Below, in pieces: positions 56,511 through 63,439 of a DNA stretch of 64,000 bases. The notes under the pieces were generated by a model, which saw only the letters and a program-made list of their open reading frames with translations, did not search any database and was not told the origin of the DNA. The translations under genes were made by a program, and so were the position numbers. The stretch is taken from positions 62,001 to 126,000 of the forward strand of contig NZ_BCSG01000012.1 in the NCBI RefSeq assembly GCF_001570745.1, given 5' to 3'. This DNA is from Alicyclobacillus mali NBRC 102425 (GTDB lineage Bacteria; Bacillota; Bacilli; Alicyclobacillales; Alicyclobacillaceae). Every line of letters starts with the position of its first letter. Positions within the stretch are counted from its first letter, which is position 1.

Positions 56511-57467
56511 GTGGCGCGAATGCTTGTGGCCGACGCACACGTGGACGTCTTGATGAAGTTGGCGGAGGGCCGCGTGGCTTTTTTGGACGACTCGCCCCTT
56601 TTGCGCGCAAATTATCATTCCCTGCGCGAAGGTGGTGTCGCCACACAAGTGTTCGCGCTCTACGTCGATCCGTCTCTGGATTCGTACACGCAATTAGCGG
56701 AAGTTCTTCGGCAAATCGACGCCTTTTACCAACAAATTGCCATCCTGGCCGATGTGCGGGCGGTGCGCTCCAAGGAAGATCTGCGTGTCGCCCGCCAACA
56801 GGGACAGCTGGCGGCCATCTTGTCGCTCGAAGGTGGCGGCTGTTTGCGCGGGAGCGTCGAACTTCTTCGCGTGTTGCACCGCCTCGGCGTCCGAGGCGTC
56901 GGCCTGACGTGGAACGACGCCAATGAGTTGGCCGATGGGTGCGGCGAGTTGCGGGGGGCTGGGCTGACCCGCGCTGGCCGCGACGTGCTGCGCGAGATGC
57001 AGCATCTGTCGATGTGGATCGATCTCGCCCACCTGCACGACACCGGCGTGCGGGACGTGCTCCGCTTGACGGACGGCCCTGTCATCGCATCCCACGCGAA
57101 CGCTCGAGCTGTCCATCCGCACCGCAGGAACCTGACCGACGACGTCATTCGCGAGATTATCCGCCGCGACGGGTGGATGGGGCTGACGTTTCAGCCGTCC
57201 TTCGTCGGGCAGGACCCGGTCGGGGTGGACGACGTGTTCCGCCACTTGGACCACGTTCTCGATCTCGGCGGGCACCGCCACGTGGGCTTTGGTTCCGATT
57301 TCGACGGCACGTCCGCGGACATTCCCGGCCTCGCCGCGAGCAGGGACTACCGCGCGTTCGCCGAGCGACTTTGCGACCGGTACGGCACGGATCTCGCCCA
57401 GGACTTCCTCTTCCGCAACTTCGAGGCGTTTCTCATGCGCCAGCTTCCTTCCGCGTCGCCCCTTTGA
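56511..57467 (+). CDS. Membrane-type dipeptidase (peptidase M19)
   Basis: Zinc dipeptidase of the renal dipeptidase family, 318 residues. It has VADAHVDVLMKL near 7 (first zinc site), LSLEGGGCLRG near 104 (bridging Glu), MWIDLAHLHDTG near 166, IASHANARAVHPHRRNLTDD near 187 and GFGSDFDG near 259. No signal peptide, so it is cytoplasmic. The GTG start has AGAAAGGATG upstream. M19 enzymes hydrolyse dipeptides, some with D-residues; the spoVS/cotE setting suggests action during sporulation. Confidence 0.93.
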   Translation: MARMLVADAHVDVLMKLAEGRVAFLDDSPLLRANYHSLREGGVATQVFALYVDPSLDSYTQLAEVLRQIDAFYQQIAILADVRAVRSKEDLRVARQQGQLAAILSLEGGGCLRGSVELLRVLHRLGVRGVGLTWNDANELADGCGELRGAGLTRAGRDVLREMQHLSMWIDLAHLHDTGVRDVLRLTDGPVIASHANARAVHPHRRNLTDDVIREIIRRDGWMGLTFQPSFVGQDPVGVDDVFRHLDHVLDLGGHRHVGFGSDFDGTSADIPGLAASRDYRAFAERLCDRYGTDLAQDFLFRNFEAFLMRQLPSASPL

Positions 57468-57575: not shown

Positions 57576-57745
57576 CCCGCCTGTGTTCACCGCGGAGCAC
57601 CTCCATTCGCCCATGCATACGATGTGCTGTGAGCGCGACTGGGCAGAAGCCGCCGGGCGCGATGCCCGCTGGCTCCTTGCCTCGCAATCGGTTCGATCCC
57701 TGCGAGCGCAGGTCCGCTCGATTTCTGCACAGAGGAGGTAGCCGC

Positions 57746-58282
57746 ATGGTGCTGTCCAGCAAAGACCTCAGCTACCGGGAAATCATGGCCAATGCCGTGT
57801 GTGGTCGCGGCAACAAGTATTCCCAGACCACGTATACGGTTCGCCCTGCCCACCGTCCGAGCACAATCGGAGGTTGCTGGGTGATGAACCACGTGTATGA
57901 GGCGGAGTTGGTCGGCGACTACGTCGAGGTCCGCGGTCGGTTTGACATCAATGTATGGTACTCGTACAACGGCAACACGGACACGGCCATCGCCAAGGAG
58001 ACCGTCACGTATACGGAACAGATCGCCCTGCGCGACATCGACGACGCCTGCGTCCGCGACAGCCGTGAGGTGTGCGTGCACGTGATTCAGAGCCCCAACT
58101 GCCTTGACGCCACGCTGACGGGCAACGGATCCGAGGTTTTGGTGCGCGTCGAAAAGGAACTCGGCGTCGAGGTCATCGGCCAGACGAAGTTGTGCGTTGT
58201 GACAGTTGACCTGGCGGAAAAGAAAGATCTCGACTTCTTTGAGGAAGAGAGCCAGGTAGAGGAAGTCGAGATCGAAGACTGA
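57746..58282 (+). CDS. cotE: Outer spore coat morphogenetic protein CotE
   Basis: Directs assembly of the outer spore coat. The 178 residues match CotE: REIMANAVCGRGNKYSQTTY near 11, PSTIGGCWVMNHVYEA near 39, the central FDINVWYSYNGNTDTAIAKE near 65 and a very acidic C-terminal tail (FFEEESQVEEVEIED). AGAGGAGG precedes the ATG. In B. subtilis cotE lies after miaB-ymcA; here it is before miaB, with the coat ATP-grasp genes in between. Confidence 0.97.
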   Translation: MVLSSKDLSYREIMANAVCGRGNKYSQTTYTVRPAHRPSTIGGCWVMNHVYEAELVGDYVEVRGRFDINVWYSYNGNTDTAIAKETVTYTEQIALRDIDDACVRDSREVCVHVIQSPNCLDATLTGNGSEVLVRVEKELGVEVIGQTKLCVVTVDLAEKKDLDFFEEESQVEEVEIED

Positions 58283-58298: not shown

Positions 58299-58323
58299 GA
58301 GGGGGCAGGCGCCCCCTCCCTTT
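58299..58323 (+). terminator. Terminator-like hairpin between cotE and the ATP-grasp genes
   Basis: Perfect 8-bp GC stem GAGGGGGC/GCCCCCTC with a 4-nt loop, followed by CCTTTG. With such a poor U-tract it would allow partial read-through from cotE. Confidence 0.5.
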
Positions 58324-58344: not shown

Positions 58345-59421
58345 ATGCGAAACGAGGGAGGACGGACGCACCTTTCCATCTACGTGGACGGCCCGAGCCC
58401 GGGGAGAAAGAGGTTTGGCGACCAGACTCGACTGTTCGAAGATCTGATCCTTCTCGGGCGCGACGCAGGCGTGGAGGTCCAGGTCCTCACGCCGGGCGAT
58501 CTCTCGGCCCGTCGCGCGCACACATTCACGGGCATGGAATGGGTTCTGACGCAGCCCGCCGGCGCTGACGTGGTGTTGCGCCGCTCCGGCCTTTTCCATC
58601 GGCAGCCTGCGCTCGCTGCGCGGGAGTTGGTCGCCCTTCGCCGCCAGGGACTTCTACATACGCTGCCTCGACAGAGTGGACAAAAATGGAGGCTCTACAC
58701 CTGGCTTCGCACCGATCATCGCCTGAGGTCTCACCTCCCGCCCACATGGCTGTGCGCGCGGGTGGAAGATCTCATCGCGCTTCTCGCCGCCCAGGATGAT
58801 CTGTACTTGAAGCCGCTCAATGGGACACAGGGCCAGGGCATCTACCGCGTGCGGAAGCGGGCCGGCAGGGTTGAACTGTGGTCCGCCGCGGCCAGCGCCC
58901 CACTGGTCATGTCGACGCCGTCCGAACTAGGTCGTGCCTGGCCCGCCGGATCATGGATTCCCTCCGTGGCTCAGCAAACCATTCCACTTGCCCAGATTGG
59001 CAACAGGCCGTTTGACCTCCGCTGGCTCGTCTGCGATGGCGATGATCCAACCATCATCGCCAGGGTTGCGCGCGTCGGCACGCCGCAGGCGGTGACCACC
59101 AACATTCACACCGGCAGCGAGCCTCGCTTCGCAGAGGATGTGCTTGAGGACGCCTTTGGGACAAAAGCCGCGCGCGATCTCGTCGGTCAACTGGACGAGA
59201 TCGCCTTGGCGGTCGCTGGGCGCGCCCGGCAGCGGTTTGGGCCATACGCCGAACTGGGCCTCGACCTCGCCGTCCGCGAGGACGGGCGCGTGTATTTCAT
59301 CGAGCTGAACCCTACACCCGGCAGAAAAATGTTGCGCCATCTGGATCCCGAGGTGCATCGTCTGTCACTCCAGGCGTTGCTGGAATATGCTATCCAAGTT
59401 CGACAGCGGCGCGGAGGATGA
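58345..59421 (+). CDS. YheC/YheD family ATP-grasp protein (1)
   Basis: A 358-residue ATP-grasp-fold protein of the spore-coat-associated YheC/YheD family. The glycine-rich ATP loop is LKPLNGTQGQGIYRV near 152 and the metal-binding end is ELGLDLAVREDGRVYFIELNPTPG near 308-330 (quoted in parts). ATP-grasp enzymes form amide or peptide bonds through acyl phosphates; no substrate is known for this family. ATG 58345 is 7 bp after GGAGGGGG. Its stop overlaps the region of the next start. Confidence 0.87.
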   Translation: MRNEGGRTHLSIYVDGPSPGRKRFGDQTRLFEDLILLGRDAGVEVQVLTPGDLSARRAHTFTGMEWVLTQPAGADVVLRRSGLFHRQPALAARELVALRRQGLLHTLPRQSGQKWRLYTWLRTDHRLRSHLPPTWLCARVEDLIALLAAQDDLYLKPLNGTQGQGIYRVRKRAGRVELWSAAASAPLVMSTPSELGRAWPAGSWIPSVAQQTIPLAQIGNRPFDLRWLVCDGDDPTIIARVARVGTPQAVTTNIHTGSEPRFAEDVLEDAFGTKAARDLVGQLDEIALAVAGRARQRFGPYAELGLDLAVREDGRVYFIELNPTPGRKMLRHLDPEVHRLSLQALLEYAIQVRQRRGG

Positions 59422-59438
59422 CCGCGGGGGTGATGAAA

Positions 59439-60551
59439 ATGACGAAACGGCCGCTCATCGGCATTCTCGATCACCCGCGATGGGACGATCGCCGGGAGAC
59501 ACTGCGCGAAAGCGATCAGATGGCGGGCATTCGGCGCATGGTCGAGATCGCGCAGTCGCTCGGTGCGGACGCGTTTGTGTTCGGGCTGGCGGACGTTGAC
59601 CTGAAGTCGAGGCGCATACACGGCTACTCTCGCGATGACGGAAAATGGATGGAGCGGGTCTTCCCGTTTCCCGACGTGATCTACGATCAGTTGCTGTCGC
59701 GCAAGCTGGAGCGTCGAGAAACCTATCGTTCCGTTCGGCACGCGCTTTCGGCAGAGTATGGCGACCTGTTTTTCAACGATGGCTTCTTCGACAAGTGGCA
59801 GATCTACGAATGGCTGCGCCGTTCCCCGGTGTGGCCGCACGTCCCTGAGACCATTCGCCACCGTTCTCTTGCGCAGGGTGCAACGTTCGTCGCACGTCAC
59901 CAGGTGACCTTTCTGAAACCTTTTCACGGGAGCCTTGGTCTCGGCATCATTCGCTTTGCGCTCGAGAAGGACGGCTCCGTTTCGTACGAATGGAAACGAT
60001 CGCGCCAAGGAATTGTCCGCGGCACCGCCGCTTCTCCCGCTGAGGCCGTGCAGCTGTTCCGCACGCAATTGCGCAGGCGGCCGTATATTTGGCAGCAGGG
60101 CATTGATCTCGTCGCGCTTGACGGTCGGCCCGTCGATATCCGCATCCTCCTTCAGCGCGACGGAACCGGGGCTTGGAAGCGCACCAAGATGTTCGCTCGC
60201 GTCGCGAAAGCGGGTGACTTCACGTCCAACCTTGCGACGGGCGGCGGGGCGATGCCGGTCGATCGAGCTATCCTCGGCGCCTTTCCGGACGACGTGAAAA
60301 GGCGCGTGCGAGCGTCCATTCGGAGGACCGCCGAGGCCGTGGCGGAGGCCGTGGAGGCCGGTGCGGGGCGAACCTTCGGCGAACTCGGTGTCGATCTCGG
60401 CGTCGATCGGCGTGGTTTCGTCTGGGTCATTGAAGTGAACTCCAAGCCGCGCAAGGCACCTGCGTCGGCGAGCGGCCGCGACGACTTGGTCGAACTCTCG
60501 TTCAGGCGACCCATGGAATACGCGCTGTTCCTCGCGCGGCGGCCGTCGTGA
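59439..60551 (+). CDS. YheC/YheD family ATP-grasp protein (2)
   Basis: About 370 residues, same family as the previous gene but clearly diverged. It starts TKRPLIGILDHPRWDD, with the ATP loop LKPFHGSLGLGIIRF near 160, IDLVALDGRPVDIRILLQRD near 218 and the end ELGVDLGVDRRGFVWVIEVN near 315 with NSKPRK. ATG 59439 has GGGGGTGA upstream; ATG 59418 overlaps the previous stop but is directly against its own GGAGG. Conserved DIR and EVN residues suggest an active enzyme. Confidence 0.87.
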   Translation: MTKRPLIGILDHPRWDDRRETLRESDQMAGIRRMVEIAQSLGADAFVFGLADVDLKSRRIHGYSRDDGKWMERVFPFPDVIYDQLLSRKLERRETYRSVRHALSAEYGDLFFNDGFFDKWQIYEWLRRSPVWPHVPETIRHRSLAQGATFVARHQVTFLKPFHGSLGLGIIRFALEKDGSVSYEWKRSRQGIVRGTAASPAEAVQLFRTQLRRRPYIWQQGIDLVALDGRPVDIRILLQRDGTGAWKRTKMFARVAKAGDFTSNLATGGGAMPVDRAILGAFPDDVKRRVRASIRRTAEAVAEAVEAGAGRTFGELGVDLGVDRRGFVWVIEVNSKPRKAPASASGRDDLVELSFRRPMEYALFLARRPS

Positions 60552-60579
60552 GCCCGTGCCGAACCAGGGGGGAGAGCAG

Positions 60580-62043
60580 ATGGCGTACTACCTTTTATTT
60601 AAGAATCAACCCTCGGCCAGACGGCTCATGGCAAGCGTTCCTCGCCTCTCCAGGTACACGGCGAGCAATCGGATGACGGATCGCGACGTGTTGGTTCGTT
60701 GGGGGATGGTGGAGGAGAGCGATCCCGCTCATGGGACGATTCTAAACGGCAGCGAAGCGCAGCGCCGCATCGCTTCGCGGGCCCAGATGGCGAAGTTTCT
60801 GCGGCGCATTGGGGTGAGGGTCGCGCCCCGCGTCAACCGGGACGGACTTCCCACGACGTTCAGCCGCCAATATCGCATCCCGATATTCGACTTTGTGCCC
60901 ATCGGATGTTTTCGCTCTGACTCGGGGGTGGACTGGACTTCATCCCGCATTTCGCGGATCCACGAGTCGTTCGAGGAAGTGCCGCTCGACGGAGACGGGC
61001 AAACGCGCCGAGCGACCTATCTGGCGACGCGCACGCTGCACGCGCTGGGGCTCGACTTCGGTCTGGTCTCCATTGGCGTGTCGGAACGAGGTCTTCTCCA
61101 GGTACTGGACGTGAGCGCGGCACCCATCTTGGAAGGCCGGCTGCTGGAGTTATATCGGGATGCGGTGCAGCGGTTTGTCGAGCGGGAGGACGAGTGGCGC
61201 CGGGCAGGTCCTCCCTCGGTGACCCTCGGCACCGACGTCGAAATGATGTTGCGGAACGCCCAGGGGAAGATGGTGCTGGCAAGCAAATATTTCTCTAGAA
61301 AAGGCCGTATCGGATGCGACGACCGGAGCGTCAACTTCGATGGCCGGCGGCTGCCCCTTATGGAGCTCCGGCCCGCGCCCGATCCTTCGCCGGATGGCCT
61401 CTTGTTGAATCTACGAGCTTTGATGCACGAAGCGAGCGAGGCCATCAATCGGCCCGGGGTCGAGTGGCGCGCGGGCAGTGCCCCCTTTCGCCCGTACTGC
61501 ACCGGCGGACACATTCACTTGTCCGGCGTGCCGCTCGGTGCGCGATTGGTGCGAGCGCTCGACCATTACGTGGGGTTGCCGCTCATGGCTGTGGAAGATC
61601 CGGTTCGCTCTCAATGGCGTCGCCCCAAATACGGTTTCCTGGGCGATGTGCGGCAAAAGGTGCACGGAGGCTTTGAGTACCGCACGCCCGCGAGCTTTGT
61701 GTGCAGCCAGGTGGCCACCCGCGCAGCCTTCCACCTGGCTCACATGGTGGCTCGCCATTACCGGGAACTTCCGCTGTACGACATGTACTCACCGCAACTT
61801 CAGTTCGCGTTTTACAGCGCAGACCGCGAGGCGTTGCGTCCGATTCTGATGCGCAACATGGAGGCCATCCGATCCCATCCCGAGTACGTCCGCCATCAGG
61901 ACGCCATCGAGCCCCTGTTCGCGATGATCGAGCGCGGGGAGACATGGGATGAGGCGGTGGACGTCCGTCAGGAGTGGGGCGTACCCCTCCGGCGCACGCA
62001 GAAGCCCAAGCAGGCAAAGACCACAGCGGTCCACACGGTGTAG
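60580..62043 (+). CDS. Amidoligase-domain protein (COOH-NH2 ligase type 2) with ATP-grasp-like N-terminus
   Basis: A 487-residue protein. The C-terminal half looks like the glutamine-synthetase-fold COOH-NH2 ligases: VTLGTDVEMMLRN near 214, a CDDRSVNFDG/MELRPAPDPSP block near 246-268 and CTGGHIHLSG near 306. The N-terminal half (DVLVRWGMVEES near 43; a C-terminal DVSAAPILEG near 180) recalls a shortened ATP-grasp domain lacking its glycine loop. Such ligases join carboxyl and amine groups. ATG 60580 follows GGGGGGAGA; GTG 60556 is the alternative. It lies between YheC/YheD copies 2 and 3. Confidence 0.8.
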   Translation: MAYYLLFKNQPSARRLMASVPRLSRYTASNRMTDRDVLVRWGMVEESDPAHGTILNGSEAQRRIASRAQMAKFLRRIGVRVAPRVNRDGLPTTFSRQYRIPIFDFVPIGCFRSDSGVDWTSSRISRIHESFEEVPLDGDGQTRRATYLATRTLHALGLDFGLVSIGVSERGLLQVLDVSAAPILEGRLLELYRDAVQRFVEREDEWRRAGPPSVTLGTDVEMMLRNAQGKMVLASKYFSRKGRIGCDDRSVNFDGRRLPLMELRPAPDPSPDGLLLNLRALMHEASEAINRPGVEWRAGSAPFRPYCTGGHIHLSGVPLGARLVRALDHYVGLPLMAVEDPVRSQWRRPKYGFLGDVRQKVHGGFEYRTPASFVCSQVATRAAFHLAHMVARHYRELPLYDMYSPQLQFAFYSADREALRPILMRNMEAIRSHPEYVRHQDAIEPLFAMIERGETWDEAVDVRQEWGVPLRRTQKPKQAKTTAVHTV

Positions 62044-62069
62044 ATGGCACGTCGCGTGAGGTGTCGATC

Positions 62070-63194
62070 ATGAGTCAAACGTTTCACGGCAATGTTCAAG
62101 GCGCCCAAACGGTGGGGGAGATGGCGTGGCGATCCGACGGCCCGGCGTTCGCGATTTTCACCGCCGATCACCCGTCTGGGTTCGCCGGATCGCGGCGTTA
62201 TTTCCGAGACATCATCGCGGCTGGGCAAAAACGAGGGTTTCTGGTCTATGTCATCACGCCCCAGTTCGTGGAAGAAGGATCGACCTGGCAAGGCTACGTG
62301 CGCGTGGGCTATCGAAATTGGAGACGGATGTGGCTGCCTCGCCCGCTCGCGGTGTACAATCGCATTCCAAACCGGGCGCTTGAGGCGAGCGCCACCGTAC
62401 AGAGGGCGCGTGCGACCTTTGAGGCCATGGGCATCCCATTTTTTAACCATCGCTACTTTAACAAGGCGAAGATTTACGAGGCCATTCGGCGCGTGGGGCT
62501 GGGTCAGCATCTGCCGGAGACGACAAGGTTTGCAGGCGCGGAATCTGTGATGGATCTCTTAAACCGCCACGGAGCCGTGTATCTGAAGCCCGTCGGGGGG
62601 AGCATCGGGCGCGGCATCGTGCGGGTGGAGCGCCGGGGCGACACCTTCGATGTGTGGGCGCAACGCGCGCATCGGGCGGAACATTGGTCGATTCGTGACG
62701 CGGCCGCGCTTGACGAAGCGCTTCGCCGCGCGCGTTTCCCGGGCGCATACGTGGCGCAGGCCGCGGTGCCCGTCATTCGGTTCGAAGGCCGGCCGTGTGA
62801 CGCGCGCGTACTTCTTCAGCGCCCGGGTTCCAGTTGGCAGGTCGTGGGCTATGGCATCCGCGTAAGCGGCGACGAGAGCATCACCACGCACGTCCCGAAC
62901 GGCGGCCATATCGCGGACCGGTGGACCGTCCTGCGCCAAGTGTTTGGGTCCCGCAGTGAAGAGGTGGATGCCAGGCTCGTCTCGTTCACCCGATCGGCCG
63001 CCGCGGCAATTGAACGGTCGATGCCGGGACACGTGCGCGAGATGTCCATCGATGTCGGCATCGACGAAGCCGGACATCCCTGGCTGTTCGAGGCGAACGC
63101 CAAGCCCATGCGGTTTGACGAGCCGGACATTGCGCGGCGCGCGAGCGCAGGCGTGATCGACATTCTGCGCGATCTCGTCCGTGTGACGCGCTAG
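62070..63194 (+). CDS. YheC/YheD family ATP-grasp protein (3)
   Basis: A 374-residue third copy. Its N-terminal ~115 residues differ (FAIFTADHPSGFAGSRRYF near 26; YNRIPNRALEA near 95), then come NHRYFNKAKIYE near 129, the ATP loop LKPVGGSIGRGIVRV near 171, CDARVLLQRPG near 246 and the metal-binding WLFEANAKPMRFD near 341. ATG 62070 is 7 bp after GTGAGGTG. The stop overlaps by 4 bp the stop of the convergent small gene. Confidence 0.86.
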   Translation: MSQTFHGNVQGAQTVGEMAWRSDGPAFAIFTADHPSGFAGSRRYFRDIIAAGQKRGFLVYVITPQFVEEGSTWQGYVRVGYRNWRRMWLPRPLAVYNRIPNRALEASATVQRARATFEAMGIPFFNHRYFNKAKIYEAIRRVGLGQHLPETTRFAGAESVMDLLNRHGAVYLKPVGGSIGRGIVRVERRGDTFDVWAQRAHRAEHWSIRDAAALDEALRRARFPGAYVAQAAVPVIRFEGRPCDARVLLQRPGSSWQVVGYGIRVSGDESITTHVPNGGHIADRWTVLRQVFGSRSEEVDARLVSFTRSAAAAIERSMPGHVREMSIDVGIDEAGHPWLFEANAKPMRFDEPDIARRASAGVIDILRDLVRVTR

Positions 63195-63439
63195 GCCAGA
63201 GGCCAGGGGAGCAGAAAGCGCTGCTTGCCCTTGGTGATATATTGAATCTGGTGCAGGGGAATATAGTGCCACTTGCTGTCGTACACCAGCAGAGCCTGAT
63301 GAGATTGGAGAATCTCGCCGATCTCCGGGAAGTCACTGGCGTACGACTTTTTATTGGGCGCGACCACAGCGCCGTCCAGCGGGTGCTCCCGAAACGCCAC
63401 GTGCACCTCAAAGGTCGGGACGTTGACTTTTTCGGACAT
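63191..63439 (-). CDS. Small protein of unknown function
   Basis: An 82-residue protein (SEKVNVPTFEVHVAFREHPL at the start) that I do not recognise. It has no membrane segment or signal; it ends in a basic-hydrophobic KGKQRFLLPWPLA. GAGGAGA lies 7 bp before the ATG on the minus strand, so it is probably translated. It is divergent from miaB and convergent with the last YheC/YheD gene, overlapping its stop. Confidence 0.78.
   Translation of the reverse strand: MSEKVNVPTFEVHVAFREHPLDGAVVAPNKKSYASDFPEIGEILQSHQALLVYDSKWHYIPLHQIQYITKGKQRFLLPWPLA

Follow-up and report, generated by a model that had tools for sequence, protein, structure and literature searches.

What is made by four ligase genes that stand behind a spore-coat gene? 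The question is raised by a window of 64,000 nucleotides (the whole stretch of DNA analysed) from Alicyclobacillus mali NBRC 102425, comprising positions 62,001–126,000 of contig NZ_BCSG01000012.1 (assembly GCF_001570745.1). In this window, the coat gene cotE is followed by three genes of ATP-grasp ligases of the YheC/YheD type (YheC/D; genes A, B and D) and one gene of an amidoligase (AML). The four proteins are probably ATP-dependent amide (peptide) ligases that form a mother-cell set acting at spore-coat assembly. The genes, in window coordinates, are as follows.

57746–58282, + strand: cotE, spore coat morphogenetic protein (PF10628, E-value 7.3e-60)
58345–59421, + strand: gene A, YheC/D-type ATP-grasp ligase (PF14398, E-value 1.2e-49)
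59439–60551, + strand: gene B, YheC/D-type ATP-grasp ligase (PF14398, E-value 1.5e-74)
60580–62043, + strand: AML, COOH-NH2 ligase type 2 (PF14395, E-value 3.6e-103, match in the C-terminal half)
62070–63194, + strand: gene D, YheC/D-type ATP-grasp ligase with a predicted RimK-like fold (PF14398, E-value 1.1e-59)

A first-pass annotation, made from the sequence, had described four genes on one strand, 17–28 bp apart. All four are indeed on the + strand, with gaps of 17 bp (A–B), 28 bp (B–AML) and 26 bp (AML–D) when the starts preceded by ribosome-binding-like sequences are taken; gene B has further in-frame starts at 59418, 59430 and 59433. The family assignments are well above the profile cut-offs, with PF14398 scores of 169, 251 and 202 bits for A, B and D (cut-off 26.8) and a PF14395 score of 344.7 bits for AML (cut-off 25). 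The nearest named relatives of AML are those of A. fructus and A. sendaiensis (89% identity). Elsewhere in the genome there is one further YheC/D gene and no second AML. This lone fourth YheC/D gene (G000:C1:244848-245558; L004, L180) is located 3′ of a queF-like gene, labelled so by sequence reading.

Predicted folds and active sites of the ligases

A tree and a residue survey were made for 193 YheC/D proteins, A, B and D included. Separate clades are formed by A (49 rows; Shimodaira–Hasegawa-like approximate likelihood ratio test, SH-aLRT, 99), B (49 rows of the order, SH-aLRT 100) and D (47 rows, SH-aLRT 96). A fourth separate clade (19 rows, SH-aLRT 97) comprises a fifth ATP-grasp enzyme, the gene of which lies between AML and D in Sulfoacidibacillus, Ferroacidibacillus, Tumebacillus and Kyrpidia. 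Judged from this tree, A, B and D represent three orthologous groups of old standing; their identities have stayed separate, as would suit separate substrates. The residues K, K, G (glycine loop), Q, D, R and G, together with D and N of the metal-binding end, are invariant in 193 of 193 proteins, and the E of this end (D...E-x-N) is conserved in 99% of them. The catalytic residues of a PF14398 ATP-grasp enzyme are thus present in A, B and D. The first-pass annotation had claimed a kept glycine loop and metal-binding end and had named a loss of catalytic residues in an alignment as a refuting result; in the alignment, the residues are kept in these three proteins and in the C-terminal domain of AML.

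Sequence searches of the PDB with A and B gave no significant relative, and the folds were therefore predicted. The model of D (predicted local distance difference test, pLDDT, 91.5) is most similar to RimK (Z 23), ArgX/LysX (Z 22) and GshB (Z 21), followed by tubulin ligases (Z 19). RimK, ArgX/LysX and tubulin tyrosine ligase-like (TTL-like) enzymes attach amino acids to carboxylate groups, either on proteins or on carrier proteins; the sequence identity to these enzymes is 20% or below, and the likeness is one of fold alone.

The AlphaFold model of AML (pLDDT 89.8) has two domains. Residues 211–467 match YbdK (Z 17), plant glutamate-cysteine ligase (Z 15) and the Pup ligase/depupylase PafA/Dop (Z 15), which places this part of the model in the glutamate-cysteine ligase/glutamine-synthetase-like fold. 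YbdK/GCS2, the plant enzyme and PafA/Dop share ATP-dependent carboxylate-amine chemistry with the AML type, but belong to another family, with 10–19% identity. Residues 1–206 match RimK (Z 16; 191 of 291 RimK residues aligned) and ArgX/LysX (Z 16), as well as PsnB. In the model, this ATP-grasp domain has lost about 100 residues. In the window protein, S, D and S take the place of the D, E and N that form the metal site of active enzymes, and the positions vary among relatives. Among 21 divergent proteins, 49 columns are invariant, 44 of them in the C-terminal catalytic half and five in the N-terminal half. With an incomplete fold and lost catalytic residues, the N-terminus does not qualify as an active ATP-grasp enzyme; by its model, it is a truncated RimK-like pseudo-ATP-grasp domain. 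The peptide-bond-forming signature seen in AML by the first-pass annotation holds for the C-terminal domain; the degenerate domain in residues 1–206 had been missed. A comparison of the AML profile with PDB sequences returned RimK alone (E-value 0.6), and the AML N-terminus matched YheC/D only weakly in a profile–profile comparison (probability 36%); the ATP-grasp assignment is therefore based on the structure match (Z 16) and not on the profile–profile comparison.

In some Bacilli, five other genomes in all, there are second AML copies of about 870–940 aa (L165, L166, L167, L168 and L169). In these fused copies the pseudo-ATP-grasp domain is followed by the amidoligase domain and a complete C-terminal YheC/D ATP-grasp domain. 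The fusions speak directly for joint action of the two types of enzyme.

Gene neighbourhood, sporulation and expression signals

Wherever an Alicyclobacillus locus is of sufficient length, the order cotE–A–B–AML–D is identical, and is therefore not due to chance. The set is flanked in this genus by rny–(spoVS)–M19 on one side and miaB–mutS on the other. Copy number and order are thus kept with cotE across Alicyclobacillus, which was the conservation asked for in the first-pass annotation. In Clostridia, e.g., Syntrophomonas, YheC/D genes are located immediately 5′ of AML. A phylum-wide draw gave 21 AML genomes, in which distances were worked out by hand from match coordinates; a CotE match was present in 14, in all 14 within about 7 kb of AML, and a YheC/D gene lay within about 5 kb of AML in 19 of the 21. 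Across Bacillota, the neighbours of AML are cotE and/or YheC/D genes. The locus belongs to a sporulation-linked neighbourhood of CotE, YheC/D and COOH-NH2 ligase genes, co-located in spore formers, and this cotE–ligase neighbourhood is old and conserved.

The distribution of AML is linked to sporulation. The class sample comprised 151 genomes, with spoIVA present in 114 and absent in 37. AML was found in 93 genomes, all of which have spoIVA, and in none of the 37 without it (Fisher p 1.4e-20, relatedness ignored). The phylum sample of 159 genomes gave the same picture, with spoIVA in 22 of 22 AML genomes and AML in 0 of 19 genomes lacking spoIVA; the Fisher p is only 0.08 because most genomes of this sample are those of spore formers. 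Within the samples drawn, AML is restricted to spore formers. In B. subtilis, yheC and yheD belong to the sigma-E regulon and are upregulated by SpoIIID (PMC517825), and YheD coats the forespore under SpoIVA control (PMC7911427). The function of YheD was still unknown as of 2021 (PMC7911427). B. subtilis YheC and YheD share with A, B and D the PF14398 ATP-grasp family, and have the mother-cell expression and coat association (PMC7911427, PMC517825) that are predicted for A, B and D; they differ in that their genes are located away from cotE, in a genome without AML.

Two putative expression signals are located around cotE.

57597–57626, + strand: putative mother-cell promoter of cotE, GCACC-N14-CATACGATGT, about 130 bp 5′ of the cotE start
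58299–58318, + strand: terminator-like hairpin in the gap between cotE and the ligase genes, stem of 8 pairs

The sequence CATACGATGTG occurs in 23 of 180 loci, always upstream of cotE and with diverging flanks; most of the closely related Alicyclobacillus, as well as Sulfoacidibacillus, have it in identical form. The sigma-K promoters of B. subtilis consist of a −35 element of 5 nt, a gap of 14–16 nt and a −10 element of 10 nt (PMC517825), and the layout of the putative cotE promoter fits this architecture; it could also be of the sigma-E type. For a second site in the genome with one mismatch to the cotE promoter, no clear sporulation gene was found downstream.

The gap between the end of cotE (58282) and the start of gene A is 62 bp. 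The first-pass annotation had placed the ligase genes directly after cotE, which is right for the gene order but not necessarily for the transcript, given the terminator-like hairpin in this gap. Under a strict rule, 16 of 27 relatives have a G+C-rich hairpin with a T-rich tail in the cotE–A gap, and further ones are visible by eye; the sequences differ. None was found in the A–B, B–AML and AML–D gaps of relatives. Partial termination is the simplest reading: cotE and the ligase genes probably share one mother-cell promoter, and the hairpin would keep the output of the enzymes below that of the coat protein CotE, giving much CotE and little enzyme.

The C-terminal tail of CotE is acidic (DFFEEESQVEEVEIED), and this is conserved in relatives. 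The CotE protein of B. subtilis, an organism without AML, is likewise acidic, and the tail is therefore only a candidate acceptor of the ligases.

The window cotE is intact. In A. suci (L080:3664-7010) and A. fastidiosus (L081:1512-7010), cotE is split near its 3′ end after GQT(K/N)LC by inserted elements of about 3 kb and about 5 kb, respectively, each with a large serine recombinase, and the missing cotE tail lies immediately 5′ of gene A. The element of A. suci is flanked on either side by the 8-bp repeat CAAACGAA. The same truncated cotE is seen in a third genome (G013, L041). By analogy, the insertion looks like a skin-type element that reconstitutes cotE in sporulation. Elements leaving during sporulation are known in sigK, spsM, gerE and yabG (PMC5595907), and A. 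acidoterrestris has a known sigK prophage (PMC13141910). As with skin, gin, SPbeta and the yabG intervening element, a serine recombinase element splits a sporulation gene (PMC5595907), but the target here is cotE, in three Alicyclobacillus genomes; no description of a cotE-splitting element was found in the literature searched.

Further observations concern the surroundings of the set. One locus (L171, genome G176) has a single cotE flanked by two AML genes with two YheC/D genes adjoining, the amidoligase being duplicated within the cluster. In one relative only (L037:7684-9170, genome G010), the AML frame is split into two overlapping open reading frames (ORFs), by a sequencing error or a real mutation. 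An M19 membrane dipeptidase gene (56511–57467) lies between spoVS and cotE and is conserved in the order; it was dropped as a member of the set, since species that have no ligase genes nearby also carry it after spoVS. An 82-aa ORF (63191–63439, − strand) between D and miaB converges on D and is kept in many Alicyclobacillus; no Pfam family above the cut-off was found for it. A phage origin of the set was rejected, the AML catalytic domain having no match in a phage collection; viral contigs contain distant relatives only, one of them with a weak ATP-grasp-like neighbour.

Acceptor, product and competing explanations

As an amide ligase set, the four enzymes may work in the following way, the expression, division of labour, acceptor and product being the parts that we infer. 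AML would make one amide bond by means of its glutamate-cysteine-ligase/PafA-like C-terminal domain; the probable task of its dead RimK-like N-terminal domain is to bind the acceptor or to dock an active partner of the ATP-grasp type. The RimK-like enzymes A, B and D, with distinct N-terminal substrate regions, would add further units in separate steps; a substrate of its own for AML and for each of the three ATP-grasp enzymes is suggested because of orthology. The ancient core may have been a D-like enzyme with AML, with A, B and the fifth enzyme of sister lineages as specialised additions. The most likely acceptor is a carboxylate of a coat protein, e.g., in an acidic tail, which is the kind of acceptor used by RimK and tubulin ligases. 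A coat protein is no less likely in this role than a free metabolite, and is favoured by the link to cotE, the RimK/TTL-like folds, the AML fold with its likeness to PafA and the coat location of YheD (PMC7911427).

A serious though less probable alternative is a free small amide-linked molecule (a dipeptide, oligo-amide or conjugate), made in the mother cell before its deposition in the coat or its release. Successive ligations by linked ATP-grasp and COOH-NH2 ligases are common in the synthesis of metabolites, e.g., glutathione, cyanophycin and siderophores (PMC4431377), D resembles GshB as well as RimK, and the AML catalytic domain resembles YbdK/GCS. However, the conserved set contains no gene for a modified amino acid, a carrier or an exporter; it is linked to a coat protein gene, and YheD itself sits on the spore (PMC7911427).

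Several facts weigh against an amide ligase set at the coat. AML was not found in B. subtilis (control genomes), though yheC, yheD and cotE are present, and AML is therefore dispensable for coat formation in some spore formers. The gene order in Ammoniphilus, Aneurinibacillus, Brevibacillus, Paenibacillus and Shimazuella is (miaB–)cotE–AML–mutS, with YheC/D genes not adjacent; as Paenibacillus, Brevibacillus and related genera show, co-operonic action of AML and YheC/D is thus not universal. Finally, YheD showed strong self-association in a two-hybrid assay, which is compatible with a structural role (PMC7911427).

This last finding, with the YheD shell round the forespore, leads to the improbable explanation that the proteins are mainly structural coat components with a retained enzyme fold, as would also suit the loss of catalytic residues in the AML N-terminal domain. 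Purely structural proteins are not expected to keep catalytic residues, and the explanation is weakened by the nine residues invariant in all 193 YheC/D proteins, the near-invariant E and the 44 invariant columns of the AML catalytic half. A graspetide-like pathway for a ribosomally synthesised and post-translationally modified peptide, in which ATP-grasp enzymes cyclise a precursor, is very improbable: the fold matches do include PsnB and other graspetide synthetases, but RimK, ArgX/LysX and GshB match better, the gaps of 17–28 bp leave no room for a precursor gene, and the conserved set includes none (a distant precursor was not sought).

The amide-ligation pathway proposed in the first-pass annotation thus gains from the folds and active sites, the order with cotE, the restriction to spore formers, the putative promoter and the fusions. 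Its description as an undescribed system does not stand. According to the summary in PMC4431377, operons of ATP-grasp and COOH-NH2 ligases with successive ligations were already published in 2009 by Iyer, Abhiman, Burroughs and Aravind (Mol Biosyst 5:1636). As far as that summary goes, the enzyme kinds, the operonic linkage and the inference of successive ligations are the same. The present locus has three distinct YheC/D orthogroups with AML, and the analysis shows the predicted dead ATP-grasp domain of AML, the AML–YheC/D fusions and the cotE–ligase hairpin. The CotE neighbourhood in Firmicutes is reportedly mentioned by Iyer and colleagues, and is said to appear in the Pfam notes of PF14398 and PF14395. 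The cotE-linked set is a well-conserved member of a predicted, uncharacterised class and not a new system.

A wider proposal, offered tentatively and rather unlikely to hold in full, is that of a widespread spore-specific modification. AML and YheC/D ligases would furnish coat proteins, perhaps at the acidic CotE tail, with a short amide-linked tail or side chain, with the AML pseudo-domain binding the acceptor. In spores, such a modification would correspond to tubulin glutamylation; many spore formers would have it, but B. subtilis would lack it in this form.

For most spore formers, the understanding of the coat is drawn by analogy from B. subtilis, a species without AML. As AML is present in 93 of the 114 spoIVA genomes of the class, the model organism may miss coat-related chemistry. 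If true, the role proposed for the ligase set would explain part of the coat chemistry in Alicyclobacillus, known for juice spoilage, and in Paenibacillus and Brevibacillus, and would provide the coat-associated YheC and YheD with a testable job.

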